DNA of 64,000 nucleotides, taken from contig PKUV01000180.1 of the NCBI GenBank assembly GCA_003131315.1, positions 1 to 64,000 on the forward strand, read 5' to 3'. The notes beneath the pieces are model-generated. The model saw nothing but the letters and a program-made list of their open reading frames with translations, did not search any database and was not told the origin of the DNA. This document shows positions 12,493-64,000 of the stretch, piece after piece. The stretch comes from Acidobacteriaceae bacterium (lineage in GTDB: Bacteria > Acidobacteriota > Terriglobia > Terriglobales > Acidobacteriaceae). The position numbers and the translations under genes were made by a program. The number at the start of each line of letters is the position of its first letter. Within the stretch, counting starts at the first letter, position 1.

Positions 12493-12544
12493 CCGCCGGA
12501 AGGCTGTTTTGTTTTTCGAAGAAGTTGTGTTTGAGAATTGGAGG

Positions 12545-13471: not shown

Positions 13472-13487
13472 CTATTTCTCCTGTTCC

Positions 13488-14111: not shown

Positions 14112-14166
14112 GATTGTTTGCCCCGCGATTGTTTGCCCTGCCGGGAATTGCGCCTGTGGTGGAAAC

Positions 14167-15273: not shown

Positions 15274-15334
15274 GGGTGAACTCCATCATTAGATGTAGAG
15301 ATTTGACGTTCCGGGCGCGGTCATCGGCAGCCGG

Positions 15335-19032: not shown

Positions 19033-19045
19033 GAGTGTTGCCGAT

Positions 19046-40424: not shown

Positions 40425-40425
40425 C

Positions 40426-42495
40426 TTGCAGTCATTGAAAAATACGTTTTCTTCCCTGTGGCAGACGTTGTTCGGCCATCCGGTTCGCGCTTTTGGCGCG
40501 GTCAGCCTCCTGTTTCTGATTTCGCTGGCCATTGCGCCGGCCAAGAATTACTTCAGTGAATGGCGTCATTACCAGAACCGGTATCTGGCGCTGGTTCGGG
40601 GTCGCGGAGATGCGGTCACACTGCAGCGCCACTTCCACGAGCACGACGGGATTCAGCAGATCTGGCTTCCGACCCTCGGAGTCGTCGATCGCTGCACCAC
40701 CTGCCACGCCGGACTGAAAGAAGCCAGTCTTGCCGACGTCGGCACACAGCCGTTTCGCCAGCATCCGGTAATCCCTCACACGCTTGACCAGTTCGGCTGC
40801 GTGATGTGTCACCGTGGGCAAGGCCCCGCGACCACCGTCGAGGAGGCGCATCGCAGCACGGCGGCGTGGGAGCAGCCGATCTTGCCGGCGCGGTATGTTC
40901 AGTCCTCCTGCGGGCAATGCCATCGCGCTCCTTTAACCGGGACACCACAGCTAAACCTGGGACGCAATCTGCTGGGGCGATATGGCTGCGTGCATTGTCA
41001 CACCATCAAACTGCCCGACGGCAGCGCGATCAAGCCGACTGATGTTCCTCCTTCGCTTTCTCACGTCGCCGACAAGAGCACACGGGAATGGGTCTATGCG
41101 TGGTTGAAGGACCCTCAGGCCTACGCCGTTACCGCAACCATGCCGAATTTCAAGTTGAGCGATCCGGACGCGCGCGATATTTCCGCTTTCCTGATCGCCA
41201 ACAGTACACCCATCGCTGGAGACACGGCGCCCGTCGCGCCAGGCGCCAAAAACCAGAAGCCGCCCGATCCGACCGCCGGAGCCAGCTTGTACGGAGAGTC
41301 ATTCTGCGCCTCCTGCCATGCCGTGCAGAACGCCGCCGGGAATGTGGTTGGCGGTGATGTCGGTCCGGAACTAACCCGGGTCGGCAGCAAGGTAAAGCCG
41401 GAATGGTTGCGGGCATGGTTGCGCAACCCGCGGGTCTACGATTCGCAAACACTCATGCCGCACTACCGTCTCACCGATCCGCAAGTTTCCCTGCTGACTG
41501 CTTTCCTCGGAAACAAGACGGATTCCGACCTGCTGGCCAATGTTCATCTCGACGCCGCCACGCCGGAGCAGGTTGCGCACGGCAAGCTTCTGGTGACCGA
41601 GTACGGCTGTGCTTCATGTCACGAAATCAGCGGCATCAAGAAGCCGGATAACTTTGCTCCGGAATTAACCCGAATCGGGAGCAAGCCGCTGACGCAGATT
41701 ATTTTCCTGCCCGGGATGACGCACGCTATACCGGATTACATTGCGGCCAAGATCCGGGAACCGCGTTCGTTTGGATCGGCACTGAAGATGCCGCAGTTCA
41801 GCCTCGCACCCGCGCAAGTTGATGCTTTGACGACTGCGCTGCTCTCGCTCACGGACCGGGCGCACGACTTGCCATTGGCATTGACCGTGCCGTCGAAACC
41901 GCCTTCGAATTACCAGCCCGCGGGCAAGGCTGGACAGCTCATGGCGGACCTGACTTGCTTCAGTTGCCACGCGATAAACGGTCGCGGCAGCGACATGGCT
42001 CCCGACCTGACCTGGGAAGGCAGTTCGGTGCAGCGGCCATGGCTACAGGCATTCTTGAAGAACCCTGGCACACTGCGCCCGGCGCTGATCCGGCGTATGC
42101 CGAGGTTCAATCTTTCCGATGACGACGCGAAAGAACTGACCGACTACATCATGGCCGTTTATCAGACTCCGGCATTCGATCGGGACTCGATGCCGTCCAG
42201 CGGCTATCCGCCTGCCCAGGTGGAGCAGGGAAAACAGCTTTTCTATTCCAAATACGCCTGCCAGTCCTGCCACATCGTTGATACCAAGGTCGACAAAGGC
42301 TACGTCGGACCAACGCTCACGCAAGTGGGCTCGCGCCTGACTGCCGCTTGGATTTACCACTGGCTCAAGGACCCGCAGGCCATGCGGCCCGGCGCCATCG
42401 AACCGAACCGCAACATGAACGACGAAGACGCCCGCGCTCTGACCGCATTCCTGATGACGCAAAAGGGCTCCAACAAGCAGGAGGCGAAGAAATAA
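40426..42495 (+). CDS. Octaheme c-type cytochrome
   Basis: Eight CxxCH motifs counted by eye; TTG start overlapping upstream stop region. Confidence 0.88.
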   Translation: MQSLKNTFSSLWQTLFGHPVRAFGAVSLLFLISLAIAPAKNYFSEWRHYQNRYLALVRGRGDAVTLQRHFHEHDGIQQIWLPTLGVVDRCTTCHAGLKEASLADVGTQPFRQHPVIPHTLDQFGCVMCHRGQGPATTVEEAHRSTAAWEQPILPARYVQSSCGQCHRAPLTGTPQLNLGRNLLGRYGCVHCHTIKLPDGSAIKPTDVPPSLSHVADKSTREWVYAWLKDPQAYAVTATMPNFKLSDPDARDISAFLIANSTPIAGDTAPVAPGAKNQKPPDPTAGASLYGESFCASCHAVQNAAGNVVGGDVGPELTRVGSKVKPEWLRAWLRNPRVYDSQTLMPHYRLTDPQVSLLTAFLGNKTDSDLLANVHLDAATPEQVAHGKLLVTEYGCASCHEISGIKKPDNFAPELTRIGSKPLTQIIFLPGMTHAIPDYIAAKIREPRSFGSALKMPQFSLAPAQVDALTTALLSLTDRAHDLPLALTVPSKPPSNYQPAGKAGQLMADLTCFSCHAINGRGSDMAPDLTWEGSSVQRPWLQAFLKNPGTLRPALIRRMPRFNLSDDDAKELTDYIMAVYQTPAFDRDSMPSSGYPPAQVEQGKQLFYSKYACQSCHIVDTKVDKGYVGPTLTQVGSRLTAAWIYHWLKDPQAMRPGAIEPNRNMNDEDARALTAFLMTQKGSNKQEAKK

Positions 42496-42497
42496 CA

Positions 42498-43232
42498 ATG
42501 AAGAGACTCTGGCGGACACTCTTCGCAGTCTCCCTCACTCTCGTAAGTGCAGGGTGCACACGCAAACCGGGACCAGCCTCTGCTCGAAAACCCACAGGGT
42601 TTGGCGCCGCGCTGGTAGAGTCGAGTGGGGGCAAGCAGATCGGCGCAACCGGCATGGTCCTTGCTCAGCCCCTGGTTGTCCAGGTCAACGATGAACAAGG
42701 GACGGCCGTCAGCGGAGCACTGGTCGAGTTCAGTGGGCCTGCGGGCGCCAGCTTTGACCCTCCGAGCGGCCTGACCGATTCCAGTGGGCAGCTCAGCACG
42801 AACGTCGCTCTGGGCGGCATGGCAGGCCGATATCAACTTATCGCGCGCACATCTGCGAAAACTCAGAAAACAGTCGAACTGAAGATTGAAGAAATTGCGT
42901 TGGGATATCAGCAGCAGCTCGGATACCAACTCGACAACAAGTATTGCGCTCGCTGCCACAATCCGGAGTCCTCGCCGGAGCGGGTTTCGAATTACGACAA
43001 TCTTGAGGTCAAGCCGCACCCGTTCACCGAGGGCGACACACTCAACAAAATGAGCGACGCCGAACTGACATCCATTATCAGCCACGGCGGACCCGCACTC
43101 AATAAGTCTGCATTGATGCCCCCGTACGGCTATACTCTGAGCAAGACAGAGATCGAGGCGCTGATTGCATACATCCGCCTGATCTCCGATCCTCCCTATC
43201 ATGCTTCCGGAATGGTGTATGCACAAAAGTAG
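42498..43232 (+). CDS. Lipoprotein monoheme cytochrome with Ig-like domain
   Basis: Lipobox VSAGC, Big-like segment, YCARCHNPES. Confidence 0.8.
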   Translation: MKRLWRTLFAVSLTLVSAGCTRKPGPASARKPTGFGAALVESSGGKQIGATGMVLAQPLVVQVNDEQGTAVSGALVEFSGPAGASFDPPSGLTDSSGQLSTNVALGGMAGRYQLIARTSAKTQKTVELKIEEIALGYQQQLGYQLDNKYCARCHNPESSPERVSNYDNLEVKPHPFTEGDTLNKMSDAELTSIISHGGPALNKSALMPPYGYTLSKTEIEALIAYIRLISDPPYHASGMVYAQK

Positions 43233-44532
43233 GGCCGGTTGGCTCGGCCTGGTTCTGAGCTTGGTCCTGTTCGGTGCGAGTGCCTCGCTTGCTCAAGTTG
43301 TATCGCCGGTGGAAATCAAAGACCCTGCATTGCGTGCCCTGCAGCAGCAATACATGGACGACCTGAGCCGGGCCGGCGAGGACATTCTGTCAACCCATTT
43401 CGATTATCCGTTCTACCTCAGCCGCAAACTCGACCTCGACCAGGCACGACAACAACTCGCGGATCAGTCATCCATCCGCTTCGACAGCTATGACGGCAAG
43501 ACTGTGCTCGCGATCACGGGCAACTACTATGCCGCTTACTCCGCGCAAAAGATCAGCCCCGGACAGCGGGCGCGTAGCACTTTTCTCAACGTGGTGATGC
43601 CGATCCTGAAAGCCGCAGTTCCCCGCTTTCAGAACAACCAGCACGTGCAAGGGTACGCGATTGAGATCTCGCATCACATTATGGGAAAAGTGATGGGAGT
43701 CTCCATGGAGCGCCCGGAAAACTTGATGGTGTTTCTGCCGCGGAGCGGCGCTCTCAAGCTGCTTGCGGCCAAGGATGAGACCTCACAGCAGGCGGCGCTG
43801 CTGCAGGGAGACGTGTTTCTCAATGCGCAACCCATCTCCATTTGGCTTAACGATGCGGTGCTCCCGCCGGCTGCTAATGATCACCCGGATGACAGTTCCG
43901 CCAAAGCTCAATCGGATCCAGCGCAAACGGGAGCTGAAATCGTTCCGGCGGGGAACGGCAGCGGGCCGCAGCCAGGCGCCACCCCTACTCCTCTGAGCCC
44001 ATTGAAACCGAAAGAACCACCAGCGCCTCCGCCCCGCGACACTTCGACGCAGGCGCTGTCGGCCACGCAACTTTCCAATCAGCCGATCGTCGATCAGATC
44101 GTGAAGGAAATGGAACCCCAGGCCCATTTCGTTTCGTACGCGCCGCCGAAATTTGTGGCTTTCCGGCAAGGAATCTATCTGGAGTTTTCCGTGAATTCCA
44201 CTTTGCCGGTGTCAGCCGCGGGATCGCGCTACAAACTGGCAGCCACGGCTTTCGATGACCACGTCGCCCACCTCGTCCGCCCGCTGCTGGCTTATTTCAA
44301 GGATACGCACGAATTTGACGGGATCGGCTTCAGCACGAACATCCACCTTGCCGGCAAGGGAGCGCTCACCTCATCGGAAGCGGTGGAATTTTTCTTTCCG
44401 CTTTCCTCTCTGCGCTGCTACGAAAAGTACGATTGCACCGGCCAGCAACTCCTGGACGCTGGAACGGTACTCATTAATGGCGAACGTGTGGCCCTCGATC
44501 TGCAAATCGCCGAGGGAAGCTCCAGCCATTGA
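43219..44532 (+). CDS. Secreted hypothetical protein, proline-rich central linker
   Basis: Signal peptide; Pro-rich linker PTPLSPLKPKEPPAPPP. Confidence 0.7.
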   Translation: MHKSRAGWLGLVLSLVLFGASASLAQVVSPVEIKDPALRALQQQYMDDLSRAGEDILSTHFDYPFYLSRKLDLDQARQQLADQSSIRFDSYDGKTVLAITGNYYAAYSAQKISPGQRARSTFLNVVMPILKAAVPRFQNNQHVQGYAIEISHHIMGKVMGVSMERPENLMVFLPRSGALKLLAAKDETSQQAALLQGDVFLNAQPISIWLNDAVLPPAANDHPDDSSAKAQSDPAQTGAEIVPAGNGSGPQPGATPTPLSPLKPKEPPAPPPRDTSTQALSATQLSNQPIVDQIVKEMEPQAHFVSYAPPKFVAFRQGIYLEFSVNSTLPVSAAGSRYKLAATAFDDHVAHLVRPLLAYFKDTHEFDGIGFSTNIHLAGKGALTSSEAVEFFFPLSSLRCYEKYDCTGQQLLDAGTVLINGERVALDLQIAEGSSSH

Positions 44533-44716
44533 CATGCTTTACCTTGGCGCTTGTCATAACTTCCGGAACAGATGTACATACTGAACCACGTTGATTTCCT
44601 CCATATTCCCTGGGGCGGAGCCTGACTTGTCACACCCTACGTGCGGCGAATGTCAGAGGGGCTAATCTCGCTGCCCCTGAGGCGAATCGGCAGCTGCGGC
44701 ACCGATTACAAGCACG

Positions 44717-44732
44717 TGTGACCGGGGTCACA
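44717..44732. promoter_or_regulatory. CRP/FNR-type operator TGTGA-ccgggg-TCACA (perfect half-sites)
   Basis: Exact inverted TGTGA half-sites upstream of cytochrome c. Confidence 0.8.
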
Positions 44733-44838
44733 GAACCTCCGCCCTCAAAGGCTTCAATATTGCAGTTTGTAGATGCAGTTTTGTCGCTGTATCCTCTTTC
44801 AAATGTTGGGCCAACAAAAACTCGAATGGAGCTTGCAG

Positions 44839-45162
44839 ATGAAGAAAGTTAACGTCCCAGTGGTTACTCTGGCAGCAGCATTGGCCGTTGTTCTCACCCT
44901 TTCCCTTTCGGCGAATGCGCAGAGCGCACCCGATCTCTTCAAATCAAAATGTGCCATGTGCCACGGCGCCGACGGAACCGGGTCGGCGATGGGGAAGAAA
45001 ATGGGCGCCCACGATTTCACGACTGCCGAAGTGCAGAAACTGTCGGACGCGGAGCTCACGGAGGTCATCACGAACGGCAAGAACAAGATGCCCGCGTCAA
45101 AGTCTCTGAAGCCGGAAGACATTAAGGGACTGGTGGCTTACATCCGCACCCTGAAGAAATAG
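44839..45162 (+). CDS. Small monoheme cytochrome c
   Basis: Signal peptide, SKCAMCHGADGTG. Confidence 0.9.
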   Translation: MKKVNVPVVTLAAALAVVLTLSLSANAQSAPDLFKSKCAMCHGADGTGSAMGKKMGAHDFTTAEVQKLSDAELTEVITNGKNKMPASKSLKPEDIKGLVAYIRTLKK

Positions 45163-45283
45163 TCTGGCCGGTTACTGCCAATAAAATTAGAAAGATTGTC
45201 CAGCGCGGCGGATGATCCGGCGGCAATGCGTGGAGTGTGTCTACGCAGCGACGCGTAGAGGAAAAGGGGAGTATCGTTTTCAA

Positions 45284-46732
45284 ATGAATCTGCGAGAACG
45301 CATCCGCGACCGGTTGCAGCCGATCTATTTTCTGGGGCAGAATCCCATCACACTTACGGGCGCCGTGGTCACGACGAGCACGGCGCTTACCACAATCGCC
45401 TTCTGGTTCTACGACATCTTCTTGCCGGGTCCGCCGCATCCTTATATTGGCCTTCTGGTCTTTCTTATCCTCCCGGGCATTTTTGTACTCGGCTTGCTGC
45501 TGATTCCACTTGGCATCTGGCTCAGGCGACGAAGTCTAAGCGGGAGCGGGGAACTGCCGGCGGTTTTCCCCGCTGTCGACCTGGGGCTGCCAGTGGTGCG
45601 GCGTACTTTGGAGTACGTGGCAGCGGCGACCGTGCTCAATCTTCTCATTGTTGGGACCGCATCGTACCGCGGCGTGCAGTACATGGATTCGACGAGTTTC
45701 TGCGGGACGACTTGTCACCGCGTGATGGATCCCGAGTATACGGCCTATCAGAATTCTCCACACTCGCGTGTGGACTGTGTCGAGTGTCACATCGGGCCTG
45801 GAGCGGGTTGGTTTGTGCGATCGAAGCTTTCCGGTCTGCGGCAGGTTTTCGCGGTAACATTCCACACTTATTCGCGCCCCATTCCTTCGCCGGTAAGATA
45901 CCTCCGCCCAGCGCGCGAGACCTGTGAGCAGTGTCACTGGCCACAGCGCTTCACGGGCGACAAGTTCCTGGTGAACACAAGCTACAAGGACGACGAAAAA
46001 AACACGCCCCAGACGGACGTGTTGCTGCTGAAAGTGGGCGGGCGCACGTGGCAGGGTTCGGTCGGCATCCACGGGCACCACCTCTCCGACAACGCGCGCA
46101 TCCGCTACATTTCGACCGACGCCGAGCGGCAGACGATTCCGGCCGTGTACTACACCGACGATCAGGGAAAGACTACCGAATTCATTTCCACTGATGCGAA
46201 GCCCGCTCAACAACAATTGGACAAAGGGGAGCATCGCGTGATGGATTGCGTGGATTGCCACAATCGGCCCACGCATGCCTTCGACTTGCCCGAAAACGCA
46301 GTGGACAAGCAAATGTCGCTCGGGCGCATTAGCCCGGATCTTCCCTACATCAGGAAGAAGGCGGTCGAGGTTCTCAAGGTGAACTATTCCACTCGCGATG
46401 TGGCACAGCAGCGCATCACTGGCGAAATCAATAGTTTCTATCAGACGAATTACCCGAAGATCTACGAGGCGCGGCGCACGGTGGTGGAGCAAGCTGGCGC
46501 GGAGGTGGCGAGGATCTACCTGCGCAACATTTTCCCGGACATGCGCGTGACCTGGGGCACTCACCCGAATAATATTGGGCACAATGATTCGCCGGGCTGC
46601 TTCCGCTGCCATGACGGCAGTCATACCAGCGCCGATGGCCAGACCATCACCAACGACTGTTCCGCGTGCCATCAGGTTCTAGCGGCGGGTGAAGAAAATC
46701 CTAAGGTTCTGACCGACCTGGGAATGAAATAA
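45284..46732 (+). CDS. NapC/NirT-like multiheme cytochrome c
   Basis: N-terminal TM region, five CxxCH plus one CGTTCH (CX3CH). Confidence 0.88.
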   Translation: MNLRERIRDRLQPIYFLGQNPITLTGAVVTTSTALTTIAFWFYDIFLPGPPHPYIGLLVFLILPGIFVLGLLLIPLGIWLRRRSLSGSGELPAVFPAVDLGLPVVRRTLEYVAAATVLNLLIVGTASYRGVQYMDSTSFCGTTCHRVMDPEYTAYQNSPHSRVDCVECHIGPGAGWFVRSKLSGLRQVFAVTFHTYSRPIPSPVRYLRPARETCEQCHWPQRFTGDKFLVNTSYKDDEKNTPQTDVLLLKVGGRTWQGSVGIHGHHLSDNARIRYISTDAERQTIPAVYYTDDQGKTTEFISTDAKPAQQQLDKGEHRVMDCVDCHNRPTHAFDLPENAVDKQMSLGRISPDLPYIRKKAVEVLKVNYSTRDVAQQRITGEINSFYQTNYPKIYEARRTVVEQAGAEVARIYLRNIFPDMRVTWGTHPNNIGHNDSPGCFRCHDGSHTSADGQTITNDCSACHQVLAAGEENPKVLTDLGMK

Positions 46733-46770
46733 GCATTGCCGAAAGCTGGTTTCATAAATCGGTTTTGGGT

Positions 46771-46919
46771 AGGGCATGGCTTTACAGCTTGCGGAAAAAC
46801 TCTGGTTTCGTATCAGGGTATCGCTTTAGCGATACCGTAAGTTCTTCAAAATCAGACGCCCCTTCAGGGGCTGGGCATCGAATATCGACTTTTTCCGCAG
46901 CCTGTTGAGCCGTGCCGTT
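46771..46919 (+). repeat. Nested inverted-repeat intergenic element (R1)
   Basis: Outer arms 46771-46802/46887-46919; inner hairpins GGTATCGC-ttta-GCGATACC and GCCCC-ttca-GGGGC. Confidence 0.8.
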
Positions 46920-46983
46920 CAGGGCCCAGAAGAATGCGGGCTTTAGCCCCTGAGGGACGTGCCTTCCGAGCGGGAAGGCCTTT

Positions 46984-49062
46984 ATGAATCCAGCTCGAGA
47001 ATTTGACATGGCTGAGACAAAAGTTGTGCGAAGGAAGAGGCGTGCTGGTCTGAGAATTATCGTCGCGACGCTCCTCGCCACGGTTTTCTCCCTTCTGTTT
47101 TCGGAAAGCCCCGGACGCGCCGCGCGGCGCGAAACCGACCAGCCTGGGGCGGAATGTCTCGCGTGCCACGGCGAGAAGAGCATGAACACGACGCGAGCCG
47201 GCAAAACGGTTTCGCTGTACGTGGACGGCAAGAAATTTGCGACTTCCGTACATGGCAGCTTCGGGTGCACGGGCTGCCATGCCGACCTGGAAGGAAAAGA
47301 GTTGCCGCACGAAACGCCGGCGCGTGTAAAGTGTGGCACGTGCCACGCCACCGAGCAGGAGCAACATGCCCGGTCCCTCCACGGGAAGGCGATTGCGCGC
47401 GGCGATCCGCTGGCGCCCCGCTGTGTGAATTGTCACGGGAACCACGACATCTATCCGGTGAAGGACCCGCGGTCCGCGGTGACGCCGCTGAAAGTGCCCT
47501 TCGTTTGCGGCCAGTGCCATCGCGAAGGAACTCCTGTGTCGCGCAATCGCCCCATTCCCCAGGACAATATTTTGGAGAACTACTCCGAGAGCATCCACGG
47601 AGAGGCGTTGCTGAAGAAGGGACTGTCGGTGGCCCCGACCTGCGCCACTTGCCACACCGCGCACTTGATATTGCCCCATACCGACCCCGCTTCCTCGATC
47701 GCTCGCCGGAACATTGCCGCCACCTGCACGAAATGCCACTCGCAAATCGAAGCGGTCCACCGGAAGATCATTCGTGGAGCGCTGTGGGAAAAGGAAGCCA
47801 ACGTCCTGCCGGCCTGCGTGGACTGCCATCAGCCGCATAAGATCAGGAATGTCTTCTATTCGCAGGGTATGGCCGATGCGGACTGCATGCATTGCCACGT
47901 CGACGAGAAGCTGCGTCGTGCGCGCGACGGGCAATCCATGTACGTCAGCGTAGGCGAGGTGAGCCATTCGCGCCACAACAAAGTTGCCTGCAGCCAGTGC
48001 CACTCGGAAGTAAACGCCTCCCGCGTTCGGCCTTGCGAGACGATCACCCACGAAGCGGACTGCACCTCGTGCCACGATGAAATTGGCAAGCAGTACATGT
48101 CCAGCATTCACGGACAACTCGTCGGCAAGAATAATCCGAATGCCCCGAGCTGCAAGGAATGCCATGGCACGCATGGAGTGCTTGGCAAACAGGACCCACA
48201 GTCGCTGACTTTTGCGACCAATGTTCCCTTGCTTTGCGGGCGGTGTCACCGGGAGGGCCAGAAGGCCGCGGTGCGCTACACCGGGAGGCAGCACGAAATC
48301 ATCGCGAACTACACGGAAAGCATTCACGGAAAATTACTGAAGAACGGCCTGACGGTGACGGCGACCTGCACCAGTTGCCACACCGCTCACCGTATCCTTC
48401 CCCGAACCGATCCGGAATCGAGTGTCAGCGCAGCCAACGTGCCGGCCACGTGCGGCCGGTGCCACCACGGCATCGAGGAGCAGTTCGAGAACAGCATCCA
48501 CGCCCAGCGGGTGAGCGGGTCCGCCAAGGAACTTCCCATTTGCAGCGATTGCCACACCGCCCACGCCATCCGCCGCACGGATCAGGACAATTTCCGGCTG
48601 GACGTGATGACAACGTGCGGACGCTGCCACGCGGAGATCGCCAAGACCTATTTTGATACCTATCACGGGAAGGTCTCGCGGCTGGGATACACGAAAGCGG
48701 CAAAGTGCTACGACTGCCATGGATCTCACGACGTGCTTAGGGTGACCGATCCACGCTCGCACCTCAGCCGGGCAAACGTGGCGGCCACTTGCCAGAAGTG
48801 CCATGCGGGCGCGACCCGCCGCTTCGCCGGATACCTGACGCACGCCACCCACCACGACCCGCGAAAGTACCCGTTCCTGTTCTACACCTTCTGGGGCATG
48901 ACCACGCTGCTCCTGGTGACATTCGTGGTCGGTGGCATGCATACGCTGCTCTGGCTGCCCCGAGCTTTCCAGATGCGCCAGGAGTTGCGCGCCGCGGAAG
49001 CGAAACGCTCGGCAACGCCTGAAACTCCCGCGAGCAAGGACAAGGAGAGCACCGATGCCTAA
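46984..49062 (+). CDS. Multiheme cytochrome c (19 CxxCH)
   Basis: 19 CxxCH motifs by eye, C-terminal TM. Confidence 0.92.
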   Translation: MNPAREFDMAETKVVRRKRRAGLRIIVATLLATVFSLLFSESPGRAARRETDQPGAECLACHGEKSMNTTRAGKTVSLYVDGKKFATSVHGSFGCTGCHADLEGKELPHETPARVKCGTCHATEQEQHARSLHGKAIARGDPLAPRCVNCHGNHDIYPVKDPRSAVTPLKVPFVCGQCHREGTPVSRNRPIPQDNILENYSESIHGEALLKKGLSVAPTCATCHTAHLILPHTDPASSIARRNIAATCTKCHSQIEAVHRKIIRGALWEKEANVLPACVDCHQPHKIRNVFYSQGMADADCMHCHVDEKLRRARDGQSMYVSVGEVSHSRHNKVACSQCHSEVNASRVRPCETITHEADCTSCHDEIGKQYMSSIHGQLVGKNNPNAPSCKECHGTHGVLGKQDPQSLTFATNVPLLCGRCHREGQKAAVRYTGRQHEIIANYTESIHGKLLKNGLTVTATCTSCHTAHRILPRTDPESSVSAANVPATCGRCHHGIEEQFENSIHAQRVSGSAKELPICSDCHTAHAIRRTDQDNFRLDVMTTCGRCHAEIAKTYFDTYHGKVSRLGYTKAAKCYDCHGSHDVLRVTDPRSHLSRANVAATCQKCHAGATRRFAGYLTHATHHDPRKYPFLFYTFWGMTTLLLVTFVVGGMHTLLWLPRAFQMRQELRAAEAKRSATPETPASKDKESTDA

Positions 49063-49900
49063 GGGCGAAGTTGCAGAACGCCAGTTCATCCGGTTCTCCC
49101 GGCTGCAGCGGATCCTGCACATCTGCATGATCGTGAGCTTCATGTGTCTGGCGCTGACGGGGTTAACCCTGAAGTTCTCCTACACGAAATGGGCGGCGGT
49201 GCTTTCTCATCTGCTCGGGGGATTCGAGAACGCGGGCTACATTCACCGGAGTGCCGCCGTCGTGATGTTCGGAGTTTTCATTACCCATCTGGTGGACCTG
49301 TACAAGTTGAAGAAAAGGGAGCACGCTTCGTGGCGCGTGCTGCTGCTGGGACCGGGCAGCATGATCCCCAACCGAAGGGACTTAGCTGAGTTTGTGGGCA
49401 CGCTGAAGTGGTTTGTGGGCCGGGGCGAGCGGCCTGCCTATGGCCGCTGGACGTACTGGGAAAAATTCGACTATTTCGCGGTGTTTTGGGGGATCGCGGT
49501 GATCGGTTCTACCGGCCTCACGCTGTGGTTCCCGGTGCTCTTCACGCGGTTTTTGCCGGGGTCGTTCCTCAACGTCGCAACCATCATTCACAGCGACGAG
49601 GGGCTGCTCGCCACGGGCTTCATCTTTACCGTGCATTTCTTCAATACCCACTTGCGGCCCGAAAAGTTTCCCATGGACATCACGGTATTCACCGGGCGCA
49701 TGGAGCTGGAAGAATTAAAAAGGGACAAGCCGAGAGAGTATGAAGCGCTGGTCGCCAGCGGGGAGCTGGAGGAAAAAATGGAGGAGGCTTATCCAGCGAT
49801 CGTCACTCGTACGATTCGAGCCTTCGCCTGGGGAGCGCTGGCGGTGGGATTCAGCATTGTGCTGTGGATCATCTATGCGATGTTGTTCGCATACCGCTAG
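49055..49900 (+). CDS. Di-heme cytochrome b membrane subunit (formate dehydrogenase gamma/b561-like)
   Basis: [26 protein letters not shown]; overlaps 19-heme gene stop. Confidence 0.88.
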
Positions 49901-49921
49901 CAGCCCATGGTGCAAGTAAGG

Positions 49922-49991
49922 TTCGTATCAGGGCACGCCTTCAGGCGTGCCGTGAGTCCCGCGTTATGAAAGCGCCTTCAGGCGCTGAGGT
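49922..49991 (+). repeat. Two-hairpin intergenic repeat (R2)
   Basis: TTCGTATCAGGGCACGCCTTCAGGCGTGCCGTGAGT...GCGCCTTCAGGCGCTGAGG. Confidence 0.75.
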
Positions 49992-50045
49992 CGTAGATTC
50001 GAGTTTCACCACAGGCCGCTAGAGCGGACTTGCGGTTGAATTGCT

Positions 50046-52184
50046 GTGAAGGGCGTTGAAATGCTCGCGACTCGGGTTGCTTTGGTTTACCTGGCTTTGA
50101 TTTGGACTTCGGCTTCGGCCTTGCCGGCTGGAGACCAGGAATGTCTGGCGTGCCATGGCGAGGCGGGAATGAAGTCCGGCGCCGGGAAGAGCATTTCGAT
50201 CGACCCGGCCAGGCACGCAGCCAGCGCCCACGGGGTTCTCGGCTGCAAGGACTGCCACACCGCCATCAAAGATTTCCCGCATCCCGTCAAAATCGCCAAA
50301 GTGCGATGCGCCACATGCCATGCGGACGAGGCCAAGTCCTTCCCCGCCAGCGCCCACTCCATCCTCGGCGAATCCGCGTGCGCTTCGTGTCATGGCAGCG
50401 TGCACGATCTCAGGACGGCGGAAAATCTGATTCCCGGAAAGTGCGCGGAGTGCCATGCGCAGGAAGTGAAGGACCTCGAATCCAGCATCCACGGGCAGGC
50501 CGCGAAGAGCGGCGACCCCGACGCGCCCCAATGCGCGTCCTGCCACGGCCTCATCCACGCTGTGAAAGCCTCCAGCGAAGCGGACTCGACCATTGCTCGT
50601 AAGAATTTGGCGGATACTTGCGCAAAATGCCACAGCGATGCGGGATTTTTGTCGCGGCACAAAATTCCGGTGGCGCATCCGGTGAATTCCTATAAGCAGA
50701 GCGTTCACGGGCGCGCGGTCGCGCTCGGTAAGGATGCGGCGGTGTGTTCCAGTTGCCATGGCAGTCATGACATCTATCCCGCCACCGATTCGCGATCCAA
50801 GGTCAATCGCTGGAAAGTGCCGGAGACATGCGCGCAATGCCACAAGGAAATCGCCCGTCAGTTCAACGAGAGTGTCCACGGGGAGGCGGTCAAGGCCGGG
50901 GTGCGGGATGCGCCCGTTTGCATCGACTGCCACGGTGAGCACCTGATCATGGACCCGAAGAGCTCGGCCTCGCCCTTAAATGCCGAGAATATCTCCGCGG
51001 AGACCTGCGGGCGTTGCCATGGCGATCCCCGCCTGGCACTGCGCTATGATTTGCCAGCGGATCGCCTGCCTTCCTACGCCGGCAGCTATCACGGGCTGGC
51101 CCTCAAAGGCGGGAAAGTGACCGCGGCGAATTGCGCTTCGTGCCATGGGGTGCATGCCATTCTCCGTTCGAGCGACCCGCGCTCCACCGTCAATGCCGCA
51201 AACCTCCCGAAAACGTGCGGGCAATGTCACAAGGGCGTGGTCGAAGACAAATTCACCATCGGTCCCGTACATGTGCAGACCAACGTGGGCCCCAATCACC
51301 CAGTTGTGCAGTGGATTCGCTGGACGTACTGGGTGCTGATCCCGGCGACGCTGGGCTTCATGCTGCTGCACAATTTGCTGGACCTGCTGAGCAAGCTGAT
51401 CCGGCGCCGCCCACGGAGGGAATCCGGCGAGATGGTGCGGCGGATGAACTTGTGGTTCCGCGTCGCGCACTGGGGCATCATGGTGAGTTTCCCGACGCTG
51501 GTGTTCACGGGATTTGCGTTGAAGTATCCGGAGAGTTGGTGGTCCAAGCCGCTGCTGCTCTGGGAGTCCGGCACCGGCGTGCGCGGCGGGCTGCACCGCA
51601 CCGCGGCGGTTGTGCTAATCGCGGCCACGGTCTTCCACGTGATTCACCTCGCCGTAAACCGGCGGGACCGCTTGTTCCTGAAGGCGATGCTGCCGGAATT
51701 GAAAGACGCGACTGATCTGGTGCAGGTCTTCTCCTACAATCTGGGACTCACGAAAATCGAGCCGCGCTTCGCAAAATTCAATTATGCGGAGAAGATGGAA
51801 TACTGGGCCTTTATGTGGGGCACCGTCGTCATGGGCCTCTCCGGCTTCCTGCTGTGGTTCAACAATTTTACGCTGCGCCATTTTCCGAAATGGGTGACGG
51901 ACGCGGCCACGGCAGTGCATTGGTATGAGGCGCTCCTGGCCACCTTCTCCATCCTCATCTGGCACTTCTACATGGTGATCTTCGACCCGCTGGTCTACCC
52001 GATGGATACCGCTTGGCTCAACGGCAAAGTCCCAGCCGATCATTACCGCCATTCCCGCCCGCAGTATTTGCGCGCCCTGGAACGGGCCCACCTGGTCGAG
52101 CTGCCCGGTGAGTCTGCCGATTACGAGGATGAGCAGGGAACTGGCGACGATCCAGGCGACAAGCCACACGGGAAGAACGTATAG
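50046..52184 (+). CDS. 13-heme cytochrome c fused to cytochrome b membrane domain
   Basis: 13 CxxCH by eye, then FRVAHWGIMVSFPTLVFTGFALKY and further TM segments. Confidence 0.9.
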   Translation: MKGVEMLATRVALVYLALIWTSASALPAGDQECLACHGEAGMKSGAGKSISIDPARHAASAHGVLGCKDCHTAIKDFPHPVKIAKVRCATCHADEAKSFPASAHSILGESACASCHGSVHDLRTAENLIPGKCAECHAQEVKDLESSIHGQAAKSGDPDAPQCASCHGLIHAVKASSEADSTIARKNLADTCAKCHSDAGFLSRHKIPVAHPVNSYKQSVHGRAVALGKDAAVCSSCHGSHDIYPATDSRSKVNRWKVPETCAQCHKEIARQFNESVHGEAVKAGVRDAPVCIDCHGEHLIMDPKSSASPLNAENISAETCGRCHGDPRLALRYDLPADRLPSYAGSYHGLALKGGKVTAANCASCHGVHAILRSSDPRSTVNAANLPKTCGQCHKGVVEDKFTIGPVHVQTNVGPNHPVVQWIRWTYWVLIPATLGFMLLHNLLDLLSKLIRRRPRRESGEMVRRMNLWFRVAHWGIMVSFPTLVFTGFALKYPESWWSKPLLLWESGTGVRGGLHRTAAVVLIAATVFHVIHLAVNRRDRLFLKAMLPELKDATDLVQVFSYNLGLTKIEPRFAKFNYAEKMEYWAFMWGTVVMGLSGFLLWFNNFTLRHFPKWVTDAATAVHWYEALLATFSILIWHFYMVIFDPLVYPMDTAWLNGKVPADHYRHSRPQYLRALERAHLVELPGESADYEDEQGTGDDPGDKPHGKNV

Positions 52185-56338: not shown

Positions 56339-57007
56339 ATGGCGAACAAACCCACGACGCAACCAACTGCGGGATCAGCCTGGCAGGCTAAGCAGGTCTA
56401 CGCGATGGCGATAATCTGCCTCGTGGTTGGGCTAGCGATCGGATACCTGTTCCGCGGATCGCAATCGCCTGCGGTGCCGCCACAACCCGCGGCCAACGCT
56501 CAGTCCAACGCTCAGCCGTCCGCCCCCGCAGGCAGTATGGGCGGCCACATGCCTAGCCTTGAAGAAATGAAACAGATGGCCGACAAGAAAGCAGCACCGC
56601 TGCTCGAAAAGCTGAAGGGCGATCCGAACAACAGCGATCTGCTCATCCAGGTCGGAAACATCTACAAATCTACCCACCAGTTCAAGGAAGCGGCTGTCTA
56701 CTACGACAAAGCATTACAGGTAGATCCAAAGAACGTTGCCATTCGCACCGAGATGGCTTCGTGCCTCTACTACAACGGCGATGTGGACGGGGCGATCAAC
56801 CAGCTTCAGCAGGCTCTGCACTATGATCCCAAGGATGCCAACTCGCTGTTCAACCTCGGCATGATCAAGTGGCAGGGAAAACAGGACAGCAAGGGAGCGG
56901 TGGCGGCTTGGCAGCAGTTGCTGAAGTCGAATCCGCAATTGAGCGCAGAGCGCAAAGCCACGGTGCAGAAACTGATGGCCGACGTCCAGATGCAGGGCAA
57001 GAGCTAG
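56339..57007 (+). CDS. Membrane-anchored TPR protein
   Basis: N-terminal TM, TPR repeats (AAVYYDKALQVDPKNVAIRTEMA). Confidence 0.85.
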   Translation: MANKPTTQPTAGSAWQAKQVYAMAIICLVVGLAIGYLFRGSQSPAVPPQPAANAQSNAQPSAPAGSMGGHMPSLEEMKQMADKKAAPLLEKLKGDPNNSDLLIQVGNIYKSTHQFKEAAVYYDKALQVDPKNVAIRTEMASCLYYNGDVDGAINQLQQALHYDPKDANSLFNLGMIKWQGKQDSKGAVAAWQQLLKSNPQLSAERKATVQKLMADVQMQGKS

Positions 57008-57094
57008 CGCCCTGGCTAGCGCGATAGCTGGAGAAACGCAGTTCGCGGCGGCTTCCGCCGGCAAACGAAACGAGATCTGAAGGAGCACTGAGCA

Positions 57095-57772
57095 ATGACG
57101 GATACAAATCGAGCAACTTCTATCGAGCAATGGACAAGCGTGCAGGCTTACACGTTGGCGGTCATCTGCCTGCTGGTGGGAATCGCGAGCGGCTGGTTCA
57201 TCCACGGATCTCAGAGTCCAGCGGCCATCGCGACTGAGACGCCGAGCGCATCCGCACCGGCTGTCGGGAGTGCAAACGCCGGCGCCCAAACTCCAACTCC
57301 GGCGCAGATGCAAAAAATGGCCGACACGCAAGCCGGACCGTTGATCGAGAAGCTCAAGGCAGACCCGACTAACGCCGGTCTTCTGCAAAACATCGGGAAC
57401 ATCTATTACGACGCCCAGCAGTTCCCCACAGCGATTGAATACTACCAGCGTGCGCTGAAGGTGCAGCCAGAGAACACGGGCGTTCGTACCGACATGGCGA
57501 CCGCCTATTGGTACACGGGCAACGCCGATGCCGCCATCGCGGAATTCCAGAAATCGCTTTCTTACGAACCGAACAAGGCCAACACGTTGTTCAATCTGGG
57601 CATCGTCGAGTGGCAGGGCAAGATGGATATCGACAAAGCTGTCGCCACGTGGCAGAAGTTGTTGGACATGAATCCGAACTATGAAGGCAAAGACAAGGTT
57701 CTGGAACTAATGGCACAGGCGAAAAAACACTCGGGCGTCAAACCGGGCACGCCGGCAAAGCCGTTGCAGTAG
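57095..57772 (+). CDS. Membrane-anchored TPR protein (paralog)
   Basis: Similar N-terminal TM and TPR repeats to 56339-57007. Confidence 0.85.
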   Translation: MTDTNRATSIEQWTSVQAYTLAVICLLVGIASGWFIHGSQSPAAIATETPSASAPAVGSANAGAQTPTPAQMQKMADTQAGPLIEKLKADPTNAGLLQNIGNIYYDAQQFPTAIEYYQRALKVQPENTGVRTDMATAYWYTGNADAAIAEFQKSLSYEPNKANTLFNLGIVEWQGKMDIDKAVATWQKLLDMNPNYEGKDKVLELMAQAKKHSGVKPGTPAKPLQ

Positions 57773-57862: not shown

Positions 57863-58114
57863 CTACTTCCGCGGTTTCCCCACGCGCTGCGCGGTCGCGA
57901 ACATCATGGCAACCGTCTCCAAATCTTTCGGTTGCACTTTCCCCGGCGGGATGCGCATGTGGGTGAGTTCTTCGAGCTTCAGCAACAGATCCACAAGTGC
58001 CATCGAGTCAACCAGGCCAGAGGAAACCAGTGGAGTGTTCTCGTCGATTGTCAGGCCCGGTTTGCGGATCAGTTCGACAATGTGTTCAATCATTTGCTGT
58101 GCTTCTGCAGTCAT
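57863..58114 (-). CDS. Acyl carrier protein
   Basis: LVSSGLVDSMALVDLLLKLEE phosphopantetheine site; ATGA overlap with FAAL gene. Confidence 0.85.
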   Translation of the reverse strand: MTAEAQQMIEHIVELIRKPGLTIDENTPLVSSGLVDSMALVDLLLKLEELTHMRIPPGKVQPKDLETVAMMFATAQRVGKPRK

Positions 58115-59838
58115 GCGAATTCGCTCTCCCCTGACTCGACGTTGAGTTCCGGATGTTCTTTCAACAACTTTTCGCGTGTGGTGGAACGCGCGGCTTTGCC
58201 GGCAGTGCTCTTCACGATCCATTTTGGTGGTTTTAAGAAAATCATCCGGACCGCCACTCCAATCCCGGCGACCACCAGGTTGCGGATCTCTCGTTCGATC
58301 TCCACGGCATTTGCGAGAAGTTCTTTGCGTTCCACTTCCGCAACCACGACGATGTCCTCGGTCCCGAGATCGGGATTGTACACACCTATCGCAATCACAC
58401 GCCCATCGTGAATGGCCCAGTGGCTGGCGACGATCTCCTCGATGTCTTGCGGATAAAGATTTTCGCCGCCGACGATGAGAAGGTCTTTCTTACGGCCGAC
58501 CACATAGAGTTCACCTTCCAGATAAAAACCAAGATCGCCGCTGTGGTACCAGCCATCGACGATCGCCTTCGCAGTCAGATCGGGACGGTTGTAGTAGCTC
58601 GTGAACAGGCTATCGCTCTTGACGAGAATCTCGCCGACGTGGCCGGTTGAAAGCAGCGCGCCGGAATCGGACGCGATCCTGACTTCATTGCCGGGCAGCA
58701 ACCGACCCGACGAGGTGAAAGAAACCGCCCCTGCAGTGCCTTCCGCAACCGGATCGATAAGATGTGCGCTACGAAATCTTTGACCATCCGCCCAAATGCG
58801 AGTGGGACCCGATGGCTGATTGATGTCCGATTGGGTTACGGCAAAAACGTTCTCGGCCATTGCGTAAGAAGATTGCAGGGCCCCGCTCTTTAATCCAATG
58901 GTGGAGAAAGCATTCTGGAACTCCTGCATGCTGCTCGACCGGACCGGTTCCGAACAATTGATCAATGCGCGAGCCGACGAGAGATCGTACTGCGCCCATC
59001 GGCTCGGCGGCGTGCGCCGGGGAACGAACTGAAAGGCAAAGTTCGGCATCCATGCCAAAGTACACTTGTGCTCGCTGATGATCTGCAACATGGTTTCCGG
59101 ATGCATCACCCAGTCGAGCGGCGACTGCATCACGACGGGCAGATGACAAACCATGGGCAGCATGAAGCAGGCGATCAGTCCCATGTCGTGGTATAGAGGC
59201 AGCCAGCTGTAAACGCAGTCCGTCGCTCCGTCGATATTCACCGCGTGCGCCAGGTGTTCGATCTGGCTCAGCACGGCGGCGTGGGTCAAGGCCACGCCCT
59301 TTTGCAGTCCGGTGGTACCCGCCGAATGCTGGATGAACGCCAAGCTCCCGGCATGATTCTCCAAGTCAGGCAGTTCGTCATCTCCATCCGAACCCCTGCA
59401 GTCGCTGGCACGAAGCAGCCGCGTTCCCGCACCGAGAGATACATGGCCGAGCATGTCGTCGGGGAATTCTTCGTCGATGACCACGACCTTGGCCCTGAGG
59501 TTTGCCATTACTCCAGCCAGTCCGGAGCGGTACTTGGAAGACTCAACCTTGAAATTGGGATAGGCAAGAAAGGCAGGCACCGCGCCTAGCATCATCGCCC
59601 CGACGAAGGTTGTCATCGCCGGAATGCTCTGCGGCATGATGACGATCACCCGATCGCCGACGGTCACACTATGGTCGCGGAGTACTTTGGCCTGCAACCG
59701 GGCGCGGCGCCGAAACTCAGCAAAAGTCACGGTGTCGCGCTCGTCTTCGTCGATCCAGGCAGTAACAAATGGGCGATCGCCGGGAGCTGCGGCGAGGGCG
59801 TCGATGAGATTGCGAAATCTGGTCACGCTGCCGGTCAT
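58111..59838 (-). CDS. Fatty-acyl-AMP ligase (FAAL-like AMP-binding enzyme)
   Basis: FIQHSAGTTGLQKGVALTHAAVLSQ, YSWLPLYHDMGLIA, WYHSGDLGFYLEGELYVVGRKKDLLIVGGENLYPQDIE. Confidence 0.9.
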   Translation of the reverse strand: MTGSVTRFRNLIDALAAAPGDRPFVTAWIDEDERDTVTFAEFRRRARLQAKVLRDHSVTVGDRVIVIMPQSIPAMTTFVGAMMLGAVPAFLAYPNFKVESSKYRSGLAGVMANLRAKVVVIDEEFPDDMLGHVSLGAGTRLLRASDCRGSDGDDELPDLENHAGSLAFIQHSAGTTGLQKGVALTHAAVLSQIEHLAHAVNIDGATDCVYSWLPLYHDMGLIACFMLPMVCHLPVVMQSPLDWVMHPETMLQIISEHKCTLAWMPNFAFQFVPRRTPPSRWAQYDLSSARALINCSEPVRSSSMQEFQNAFSTIGLKSGALQSSYAMAENVFAVTQSDINQPSGPTRIWADGQRFRSAHLIDPVAEGTAGAVSFTSSGRLLPGNEVRIASDSGALLSTGHVGEILVKSDSLFTSYYNRPDLTAKAIVDGWYHSGDLGFYLEGELYVVGRKKDLLIVGGENLYPQDIEEIVASHWAIHDGRVIAIGVYNPDLGTEDIVVVAEVERKELLANAVEIEREIRNLVVAGIGVAVRMIFLKPPKWIVKSTAGKAARSTTREKLLKEHPELNVESGESEFA

Positions 59839-59983
59839 TGTAGCTGGGGAGAGAGACGGAAATCCGCGACGTAGATCACACCCCCGAAGTTTTTGGTGGT
59901 ATGCGGGAGGGCATATGCGAGAGGACCACGGATACGCAATAATGCCTTGCAATCTGAAACGGTTTCGATAACGCAGGTGAGGA

Positions 59984-61456
59984 ATGTTGTTTCGGGCAAT
60001 CCTGTACGGTCTGGTATTTCTGCTTTGCGTAGTGGTGTTTGCTAAAGTCCGCTCGCGAGCGATAAGACAGCCTGTTCTTGTGATCGGATGCTACGCGCTC
60101 TATCTCACATGGGGAGCCTGGTTCGCGGCTGTTCTGCTCACTTCCACGGTGATGAACTTCCTGCTGGGGAAATGGCTTCAGCGAAAACCTTCCGGGCTCG
60201 TTCTGTCGGCCGGCATTCTGCTGAACCTGGCGCTGCTCGGCAGCTTCAAGTACCTCCCGGAAATCGCAGTCAATATTCCTCTATCCTCGTTGCAAAGGTT
60301 CTCGCATCTTGCCCTGCCCTTAGGGATCTCATTCTGGACCTTCCAGGCGATGAGTTACCTGTTTGACCTTTACCGTGTCGAGGAACTCGACCCATCGTTC
60401 TTCGAGTTTGCGCTGTACATGGTTTTCTTTCCGGTCGCGATCTCGGGACCGATCTGCCGCATGCCCGAAATGCTTCCGCAATTTCGCTCCGAGCAAACCA
60501 CACCTGCGCACGACATCGCACACGGGTTCGGCCGTATCGCAACGGGCTTGCTCATGATGCAGTTGGCGCAATTGCTGGGGCAGGGAATTCTGGCGGGCGA
60601 CGGAATCAACAGTGGCTTCGATCACGTCACTCACTGGAGTGGCACGGACGTCTGGTGTTTGGCGTTTGGATACGGGTTGCAGCTTTTCCTGGATTTCGCC
60701 GGGTACTCGCACATCGCAATCGGCGCCGCCAGAGCGCTGGGCTTCACGTTGCCCGAAAACTTCGCTCGTCCATTTCAATCCACCAGCCCGTCGATCTTCT
60801 GGACGCGCTGGCACATGTCGCTATCGTTCTGGATTCGCGACTACGTTTTTCTCCCGCTGGCAGTAATGCGCCGCGAGGTGTGGTGGCGAAATCTCGCGTT
60901 AGTGATTTCGATGGTCCTGTTCGGATTGTGGCATAAGGCAAGCGTGCTCTTCGTGCTCTGGGGGTGCTATCACGGAGTGCTCCTCGTCTTGCATCGTCAG
61001 CTACAGCAATTGCAGCGGCAGTTCGAGGAGCAGTTCGACTGGACGCTCCCGGCAACCCTCTGGACGCCGGTCTCGTGGGTTGCAACGATAAGTCTCGTCA
61101 GTCTGGGATGGATATTCTTCCGTGCCAATTCTCTGCTCGAGGCGCGGCAGATGCTGTCGGCAGCCCTAACGCCTGCGGGCTATTTTTCTCACTTTCTCAG
61201 CGGAAGTCTTTATGCCCTGGTGATGGCTCTGGCGCTCGGATATGCGGTTGTGCTGTTGGCGATCGAGGCGCTCGATCGCTACTTGGTTGAGCCGGAAGCC
61301 TCCGCCGCCCGCTCCCGTTCAGAAATCATCGCCCTCATTGCTCGTAATCGCTGGTTTTGGATCCCACCTCTATACGTATTGGCATTACTTCTCGTCCTGA
61401 TCGTGACGCACACTCGCGGCGCTGACGCGGCTCAGTTCATGTATCGGAAGTTTTGA
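59984..61456 (+). CDS. MBOAT family O-acyltransferase
   Basis: LPLGISFWTFQAMSYLFDLYR, FARPFQSTSPSIFWTRWHMSLSFWIRDYVFLPL, GLWHKASVLFVLWGCYHG. Confidence 0.92.
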   Translation: MLFRAILYGLVFLLCVVVFAKVRSRAIRQPVLVIGCYALYLTWGAWFAAVLLTSTVMNFLLGKWLQRKPSGLVLSAGILLNLALLGSFKYLPEIAVNIPLSSLQRFSHLALPLGISFWTFQAMSYLFDLYRVEELDPSFFEFALYMVFFPVAISGPICRMPEMLPQFRSEQTTPAHDIAHGFGRIATGLLMMQLAQLLGQGILAGDGINSGFDHVTHWSGTDVWCLAFGYGLQLFLDFAGYSHIAIGAARALGFTLPENFARPFQSTSPSIFWTRWHMSLSFWIRDYVFLPLAVMRREVWWRNLALVISMVLFGLWHKASVLFVLWGCYHGVLLVLHRQLQQLQRQFEEQFDWTLPATLWTPVSWVATISLVSLGWIFFRANSLLEARQMLSAALTPAGYFSHFLSGSLYALVMALALGYAVVLLAIEALDRYLVEPEASAARSRSEIIALIARNRWFWIPPLYVLALLLVLIVTHTRGADAAQFMYRKF

Positions 61457-61498
61457 AGGGTGGCGAATCGAGGAGTCTGAACTTTCTATTCGATCGGC

Positions 61499-63190
61499 CT
61501 ATTTGATCGGCGTGCCGTCGGGAGCGAAAACGGGGAAGCCATCCCACGGCCGAGCCATGCGCAACTGCTCCGCCGCCGCGGCACGGTCGTAGTCGAAGAG
61601 GAAGATCCCATAGTTGTAATGCAGGATCCGGTCGTCCGGCTTTTTCCTGATTGCCCATTGATACTCAGCGACTGTCTCGTTGGGGCTTTCGTCTGGAGCG
61701 CCCGCCTTAATCGTCAACCTCAAGACCTGATCGGAGTGGTTCAGTTGATTTGTGAATGGAGGCTTTTGCAATCGCTGCAGCATCTCCCTGGCAATCCGGA
61801 GGCGATCATGACTGGTGAACGCCAGCAGTTGCTCGCATTCAACTTGAGAAGGAACATCAGAACGGACATCGCCACCCTGTAGAGAAGGGGCTTGCCCCGT
61901 CTCCTTCGCCAGCTTGCTAGCGATCTGGACGAACATGGCACGCGCCAGAAGGTAGTTGCCCTCAGGAGTCAGGTGTACATGCTCATACACGAGATCGCTG
62001 CCGACGATTCCGTTCGGGCTCTCCTTGGCGAAAATCTCATCGGCGTCCACGAGTTCTGCGCCTGAGGAGGAAGAGGCTACCGAACGATTGATGTCATTGA
62101 TCTTGCTGTCGGCGCGAAACCGAAGGGTGTCGAGATCGCGGGCGCGAAGAAAATGTTCCCTGGCCGCGCGGTAATCTCCCAGCATCCACAGGCAGCGAGC
62201 AATCCGGAATTCGAGCTCGGCGTACTGGCCGTCGATCTCCGCCGCGGAGAGATATGTTTTCAACGCTTCCGCGTACGACCTGCCGTTTTCTAAGTCGGAT
62301 CCTTGTTGGACCAGCGCCGACCAGGAACGCAAAGCATCTTGCCCTAAATCCTCGCGGTGCAAGGATGCGAACGGGGCACAGTCTTTCAGGTTCGTAGCAA
62401 CCGTGGCGACGATTACGCGGGCACCGGAGCTGCGAGCGATGGCGACGGTGTCCCGCAGATTGCTTTCGAAGTTCTCATACGCATGCTGCATGAGCGGCGA
62501 ACGGGCTGGGACTTGCTTGTCAAGAAACATTTCCATCCCGCCCCATTCCCGCTTTTGCGTTCCCACCTTGGTGAGAAACTGGCCGATGCGGGTTGAACGA
62601 ATGAAGATGCTGGTGCGGATGACGGGGAGGCTCATGCCGGAGGACGTAAGTGCAGTGCCGGGACCATAAGGTCCGACGACTTCATTGTTACCCGAGTAGA
62701 TGATGAACAAATCCGGGCGTTCGTTCGCCAATCCCTTGGCAATCGGCAACAGGACGTGGGAGTTGACGGCGACGCTGCCGGTATTGACCACCTCGAACTT
62801 CATAGAAGGGAATCGTTCCCTGAGCATCACCTCCAGGTAGCGGCTGAATCCATAGGCGGGATCGGGATCGCCCATGGCCGCGGATTCTCCGAGTACAAAG
62901 ATTCTGAAGGTTCCCTGAGGTTTTTCGGCCGGAATCGCATACGCCTGCGGTGTCTTGATCATTCCCGGAGGAAAAAAGGGAGCAGGGAAGAACAGGTTGT
63001 AGCAAGAGGCGGGCCGGCCCTGCACCGTGCACGGGACGGTAAGGTCGGTCGGAAATCCGACGCCAAACAGGCGTAGCGCCCCTTCCGCTATGCCGAGTAA
63101 CAGCACGGGAACGAAGACCGACGTGGCAATGCGTGGCACCCAGAAGCGCCACCCGCGAACGGGCTTTTCTATTTCAGCTGATGTCGTCAT
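61499..63190 (-). CDS. SGNH/GDSL-like hydrolase with TPR region
   Basis: IFVLGESAAMGDP, PDLFIIYSGNNEVVGPYG, TPR-like segment, N-terminal TM. Confidence 0.85.
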   Translation of the reverse strand: MTTSAEIEKPVRGWRFWVPRIATSVFVPVLLLGIAEGALRLFGVGFPTDLTVPCTVQGRPASCYNLFFPAPFFPPGMIKTPQAYAIPAEKPQGTFRIFVLGESAAMGDPDPAYGFSRYLEVMLRERFPSMKFEVVNTGSVAVNSHVLLPIAKGLANERPDLFIIYSGNNEVVGPYGPGTALTSSGMSLPVIRTSIFIRSTRIGQFLTKVGTQKREWGGMEMFLDKQVPARSPLMQHAYENFESNLRDTVAIARSSGARVIVATVATNLKDCAPFASLHREDLGQDALRSWSALVQQGSDLENGRSYAEALKTYLSAAEIDGQYAELEFRIARCLWMLGDYRAAREHFLRARDLDTLRFRADSKINDINRSVASSSSGAELVDADEIFAKESPNGIVGSDLVYEHVHLTPEGNYLLARAMFVQIASKLAKETGQAPSLQGGDVRSDVPSQVECEQLLAFTSHDRLRIAREMLQRLQKPPFTNQLNHSDQVLRLTIKAGAPDESPNETVAEYQWAIRKKPDDRILHYNYGIFLFDYDRAAAAEQLRMARPWDGFPVFAPDGTPIK

Positions 63191-63449: not shown

Positions 63450-64000
63450 CTACTTTTTTATGGGCAATTTGGGCTTTCCCGTCTTGGCAGCACCGACGGA
63501 GCCATCCGCATTGTGGGCGACCGCGTGGCACATCAGCGTGCACGTGTTGGTACTGCGGTTGTAAGCAATCGGAGCGCCGTTGTTTTCTCCAACGACGTTG
63601 GCGTCAAAATTCACGAGGCGCTCCCCAGTGATGCTCGGGGACGTTGCGCCCATACCATGGGCTGTGTGGCATACCGAGCAACTGAAGCCGTACTGGGATA
63701 TGTGCAGGCTGTGTTGAGTGAAGCTGGTATTGCCGACGATCTGGGTCAGGTCGTGACACTTCGCGCACATAGCATACGGCCCGGTGAAGGTCAGGTCGGG
63801 ATTGGGGAAAAGGTTCGTGACCACCCCGCCCGGAACTGCGGCCTGGCTGAATTGATAGTTGCGCTCGAGGATGTGCGAGTTGTTCGATCCGTGGGGGCCG
63901 TTCGGGCCGGCGCCGCCGAACTCGCGATTGTCGTCGCTGTTATGACAATCGGTGCAGAAGATGCGCGTTCCCATCGCGCGCGCAGACGCCGTTCCATTCT
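63450..64000 (-). CDS. Multiheme cytochrome c (partial; N-terminus beyond the window)
   Basis: CTDCH, CAKCH, CSVCH plus CTLMCH (CX3CH); frame open to window edge. Confidence 0.85.
   Translation of the reverse strand, partial: NGTASARAMGTRIFCTDCHNSDDNREFGGAGPNGPHGSNNSHILERNYQFSQAAVPGGVVTNLFPNPDLTFTGPYAMCAKCHDLTQIVGNTSFTQHSLHISQYGFSCSVCHTAHGMGATSPSITGERLVNFDANVVGENNGAPIAYNRSTNTCTLMCHAVAHNADGSVGAAKTGKPKLPIKK

Follow-up and report, generated by a model that had tools for sequence, protein, structure and literature searches.

What might bring together, in the genome of a soil acidobacterium, a free-standing carrier protein, an enzyme able to charge it, an MBOAT acyltransferase and a membrane-anchored SGNH-type protein? 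The window analysed here (the whole stretch of 64,000 nucleotides) is part of contig C141, from a genome of 6.0 Mb; among named organisms, its nearest relatives are Candidatus Sulfotelmatobacter and further metagenome assemblies of Acidobacteriota. The reading that we consider probable is that the four genes constitute a carrier-protein-fed MBOAT–SGNH envelope acylation system, with a mechanism resembling those of Dlt and PatAB but without being a Dlt operon.

Organization of the Module

The ACP (83 aa, PF00550, phosphopantetheine site Ser37) is encoded on the minus strand at 57863..58114, and the fatty acyl-AMP ligase (FAAL, 575 aa, PF00501) on the same strand at 58111..59838. The plus-strand gene at 59984..61456 codes for a DltB-like MBOAT acyltransferase (490 aa, PF03062), whose C-terminal acyl-shuttle motif FMYRKF (FxYxxF; 61436..61453, plus strand) includes the proposed acyl acceptor Tyr487, while a membrane-anchored SGNH/TPR protein (563 aa; TPR and a weak GDSL match; Ser103, His406) is encoded on the minus strand at 61499..63190. 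All four reading frames are open, and the Pfam and fold matches agree with the families assigned to them in a preliminary description; the start of the SGNH/TPR gene at 63190 is backed by orthologues, although the frame could be extended to 63388. The same description had the ACP and FAAL genes coupled through an ATGA. The 4-base overlap, with the TGA stop within the ATGA, does exist; however, it is the FAAL gene that lies upstream and the ACP gene downstream.

In the window, the MBOAT gene is divergent from the FAAL gene and convergent with the SGNH/TPR gene. The four genes represent three transcription units and not a single operon, which counts against reading them as a module, and a search retrieved neither a promoter-like site nor an informative terminator. 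Next to one another at 56339-57772 are the genes of two TPR proteins, related to each other and each with a membrane helix at the N-terminus; many relatives keep them close to the module. Genes for several multihaem cytochromes c, one with a cytochrome b561 domain, are located at 40369-52184 and 63450-63974, and many relatives conserve the cytochrome series that extends past the SGNH gene.

The Activating Enzyme and the Carrier Protein

The best NCBIfam matches of the ligase are long-chain ligase and FAAL subfamilies, all below their cut-offs. The protein aligns end to end, in a single stretch, with the FAAL structures 7r7g, 3pbk and 3kxw, and the spacing between its YAMAE and GRLLPG motifs is 48 residues; the two acyl-CoA ligases encoded in this genome for which the spacing was measurable have 18. 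An insertion of about 30 residues is found at the site of the FAAL-specific insertion described previously (PMC8460268). As far as the sequence tells, the insertion and the full-length matches to FAAL structures argue for a FAAL-like adenylating enzyme, in agreement with the preliminary description. A D-Ala function of this activator was also considered and was rejected, given the matches to FAAL and long-chain ligase models and the presence of the FAAL-type insertion; DltA is absent from the best NCBIfam matches listed for the enzyme.

Judged by curated cut-offs applied to the sequences, the module is not a Dlt operon. Indeed, the ACP gives a weak DltC-like match (27 bits, with a cut-off of 68) and is not a DltC equivalog, and the MBOAT scores 167.8 bits with LTA_dltB, whose curated cut-off is 375, so that it is a homologue and not an equivalog.

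The MBOAT and Its SGNH Partner

The genome encodes one MBOAT only, and its PF03062 score exceeds the cut-off. Among solved structures DltB is its best sequence match, and the best fold match of the model is again DltB (6bug/8jem, TM 0.73 by target length). In the alignment of homologues His277 and His317 are invariant; the protein ends with FMYRKF, of which the Tyr and the last Phe occupy the very end in 49 out of 49 homologues, the first position of the motif being Phe, Leu, Met or Val. The MBOAT fold with the catalytic His317 and the C-terminal FxYxxF motif place this protein with the MBOATs of MBOAT–SGNH pairs. Acetylation of PatA has been shown to occur on the Tyr of the FxYxxF motif, and in Dlt the same motif is supplied by DltX (PMC12148441).

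As for the SGNH/TPR protein, it has a Pfam TPR match, a GDSL lipase/SGNH match below cut-off and a predicted N-terminal membrane helix (14-41), and it gave no match to the DltD family in Pfam or NCBIfam at E 0.001. GES (101-103) and EHVH (403-406) are invariant across 20 aligned orthologues. The model (mean pLDDT 76.7) matches both SGNH enzymes and TPR proteins, with PAF-acetylhydrolase 1wab and Axe2 4oap giving TM values of 0.6 to 0.66 by target length. The protein thus combines an SGNH-like fold with the invariant Ser and His of an SGNH partner; the acid residue, however, is Glu403 and not the Asp that is usual in this class of enzymes, and this, like the GDSL score below cut-off, counts against the proposed reading.

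Co-inheritance and Rearrangement among Relatives

Conservation of the neighbourhood across genomes, which had been suggested as a check, was surveyed in 101 related genomes, a close FAAL being one with at least 57% identity. Such a FAAL is present in 12 of them, and the same 12 harbor a close ACP and the MBOAT at one locus. The SGNH/TPR protein accompanies them in 10 cases; in the remaining two (G091 and G098) an AlgX-type SGNH protein adjoins the MBOAT instead. In genome G016 the MBOAT and SGNH/TPR genes are found and the contig end falls inside the former, and in G019, which is 75% complete, only the SGNH/TPR gene was detected, in pieces. Since the host genomes are akin, the twelve co-occurrences do not represent twelve independent events.

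The arrangement is far from uniform. The FAAL-ACP pair is inverted in four loci (L056, L057, L059, L064), and the SGNH/TPR gene lies on the other strand in five (L046, L050, L052, L053, L054). Order and orientation vary whereas the content is kept, which argues against mere synteny; moreover, the recurrence of the set in all the relatives with a close FAAL, despite the reshuffled order, indicates that the grouping is not due to chance. Two loci are exceptions and count against the module: L072, where an MBOAT is present and no FAAL, ACP or SGNH was found nearby, and L053, which has no FAAL locally. A distant MBOAT (30% identity) also occurs in L073, a metagenome assembly whose record is titled Klebsiella pneumoniae, a species label that looks doubtful; this locus, with a long branch and no FAAL or ACP seen, was left out.

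Loaders and SGNH Proteins in Related Loci

In five loci (L056, L057, L059, L060, L064) the ACP and MBOAT genes flank one for a different type of protein, of 443 aa, which has no Pfam match and carries the SGNH-like motifs GDS and DTHYN. In one of these, L060, a lipoyl E2 and a PDH-like E1 with fused alpha and beta parts stand in the position of the FAAL (L060:5070-8640), and the end of the E2 reading frame shares 4 bases with the start of the ACP gene; a carrier protein fed by a 2-oxoacid dehydrogenase is a possible interpretation. The 101 genomes yielded no relative of this E2, so the E1/E2 replacement rests on one metagenome assembly. The sister of L060 in the MBOAT tree is L064 (100/99), which bears a FAAL.

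A different activator is found in L068, L075, L076, L078 and L088 (46% identity), where an ACP and a DltA/NRPS-like amino-acid A-domain accompany the MBOAT, joined in most of these loci by a further SGNH-like protein. This cassette is a candidate for Dlt-like aminoacylation in a Gram-negative-type phylum. The A-domain group and the FAAL group fall in one well-supported clade (100/100) of 30 rows. Two further branches, both long, hold the FAAL-linked L129 and L130 in one case and L123 and L125 in the other. Residues Asp36-Ser37 of the ACP are invariant in 13 aligned homologues, three A-domain-type ACPs among them, and a C-terminal block is common to the window-type ACP and the ACPs of three A-domain loci. 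The sharing of this block with A-domain-type relatives fits a shared ACP–MBOAT interface.

Compact clusters with FAAL, ACP, MBOAT and SGNH-like genes were also found in other genera and in distant families of the phylum (L119, L123, L125, L129, L130), the SGNH assignment coming from a Pfam match in L123, from a weak one in L125, and from motifs only in L119, L129 and L130. The plasmid searches yielded no ACP relative, and no module was seen around their best FAAL match, in Leptolinea HRD-7.

Taken together, this distribution suggests that a FAAL, an amino-acid A-domain and a 2-oxoacid dehydrogenase E1/E2 might be interchangeable loaders. We can speculate, as a tentative proposal for which the odds are somewhat less than even, that Acidobacteriota have a family of envelope acylation machines with a conserved ACP–MBOAT core and interchangeable loaders and SGNH proteins, of which the one in the window would pass fatty acyl groups via the DltB-like enzyme onto a surface glycan.

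Proposed Mechanism and Alternative Explanations

From the observed gene content, motifs, folds and co-inheritance we infer the following catalytic steps. The FAAL would adenylate a carboxylic acid and load it onto the phosphopantetheine of the ACP; the acyl-ACP might then dock at the cytoplasmic face of the DltB-like MBOAT, which would shift the acyl moiety onto Tyr487 in its C-terminal FMYRKF tail, the tail playing the role of DltX in Dlt. Finally, Ser103 of the periplasmic, membrane-anchored SGNH/TPR protein could accept the acyl group and attach it to a hydroxyl of some envelope molecule, for which a glycan or a glycolipid is the likeliest candidate, the TPR part possibly aiding the binding of a partner or of the substrate. 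That acyl transfer across the membrane depends on the ACP appears to us highly probable. The Dlt-like logic of activator, carrier, MBOAT and SGNH protein, already proposed for this locus, is well supported by the co-occurrence, the acyl-shuttle motif and the folds.

Different explanations might account for the same genes. The FAAL and the ACP might prime a separate lipid or polyketide pathway, leaving the MBOAT–SGNH pair to work alone with acyl-CoA. This would be in agreement with the usual role of FAALs, which commonly feed PKS/NRPS lines (PMC11837247), and with the use of acyl-CoA by the characterised MBOAT–SGNH pairs other than Dlt (PMC12148441). It appears unlikely, however, in view of the joint inheritance of FAAL, ACP and MBOAT in 12 of 12 genomes, where they rearrange together; of the genes examined at these loci, none was recognised as a PKS or an NRPS, and the second-best FAAL-like protein of the genome is just 27% identical to that of the window. 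Similarly unlikely, in our opinion, is the idea that the SGNH/TPR gene is part of the multihaem cytochrome operon next to it and that only regional synteny places it close to the MBOAT. Although the conserved cytochrome series is its same-strand neighbour in many loci, in L046, L050, L052 and L054 the SGNH/TPR gene follows the MBOAT gene on one strand, downstream of it and away from the cytochromes; its presence tracks that of the MBOAT across genomes, and the loci without it have a different SGNH-like protein.

A more serious alternative retains the same machine and changes its cargo: the acyl group might be short or functionalised (acetyl, branched or a hydroxy acid, for instance), the ligase being FAAL-like by fold only and the result closer to an O-acetylation than to a lipidation. 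The E1/E2 pair of L060, whose MBOAT is sister to one linked to a FAAL, and the pairing of sister-clade MBOATs with DltA/NRPS-type amino-acid A-domains speak for it; the full-length matches of the window ligase to fatty-acid-loading FAALs and the single occurrence of the E1/E2 arrangement speak against it. We regard this possibility as real but the less favored one. The preliminary description had proposed a fatty acid as the moved group, which is plausible for the window, while the E1/E2 genes suggest a short acyl in L060; on balance, within the carrier-protein-fed acylation system that we prefer, we lean towards a chain of the fatty type (C6 or longer) and not a short one.

Comparison with Known Systems

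The module resembles Dlt (DltA-DltC-DltB-DltX-DltD), which is responsible for the D-alanylation of teichoic acids, in having an adenylating enzyme, a free-standing carrier, a DltB-like MBOAT and an anchored SGNH-type protein. Unlike Dlt, it has a FAAL in place of a D-Ala adenylation domain and an SGNH/TPR protein in place of DltD, and the shuttle motif that the DltX microprotein supplies there is fused here to the C-terminus of the MBOAT. A further difference is that the host phylum, to our knowledge, is of the Gram-negative type and devoid of teichoic acids. With PatA/PatB, AlgI/AlgJ/AlgX and related pairs it shares an MBOAT with a C-terminal FxYxxF tail and a separate SGNH protein, an AlgX-like SGNH protein being used by some of its relatives; those pairs, however, use acyl-CoA and no carrier protein, and among characterised MBOAT–SGNH systems carrier-protein donors are known for DltB (PMC12148441). 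Here a loader is encoded together with an ACP whose gene is adjacent to that of the MBOAT and co-inherited with it. Lastly, the FAAL adjoins its cognate ACP as in the FAAL–ACP starter modules of lipopeptide, polyketide and olefin pathways, but the acyl-ACP genes stand beside an MBOAT–SGNH pair and not beside a PKS or an NRPS.

A literature search revealed no paper pairing a FAAL with an MBOAT or DltB, or an MBOAT with an SGNH protein and an ACP; a broader one returned Dlt, PatAB and unrelated work only, and a 2025 review of FAALs does not mention MBOATs (PMC11837247). What is new is the FAAL as the presumed loader of an MBOAT–SGNH system, together with the swapping of loaders. If the FAAL-fed version is true, the range of groups that can be attached to bacterial surface polymers would be wider, possibly including whole fatty acids, and FAALs would have a role beyond polyketide and lipopeptide synthesis. 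Natural loader swapping would also offer a direct test of whether the choice of donor depends on the ACP–MBOAT contact or on the acyl group.

The Acceptor

No acceptor gene is constantly linked to the module, and this counts against the proposed reading. Some loci of relatives lie in a glycan context: a glycosyltransferase gene adjoins the L119 cluster, genes for a bacterial sugar transferase and an AT3 acyltransferase adjoin that of L125, and in L061 a GT2 gene comes after the ACP gene. These contexts favor a glycan or a glycolipid, which we consider the somewhat likelier kind of acceptor. Support for the polysaccharide as the target, suggested in the preliminary description, is indirect: relatives adjoin glycan genes, but the large polysaccharide cluster of the window (9690-25580) is more than 30 kb away from the module. 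Within this cluster, a single reading frame (23040-25580) combines a PAP2 phosphatase domain with a Wzi capsule-assembly domain.
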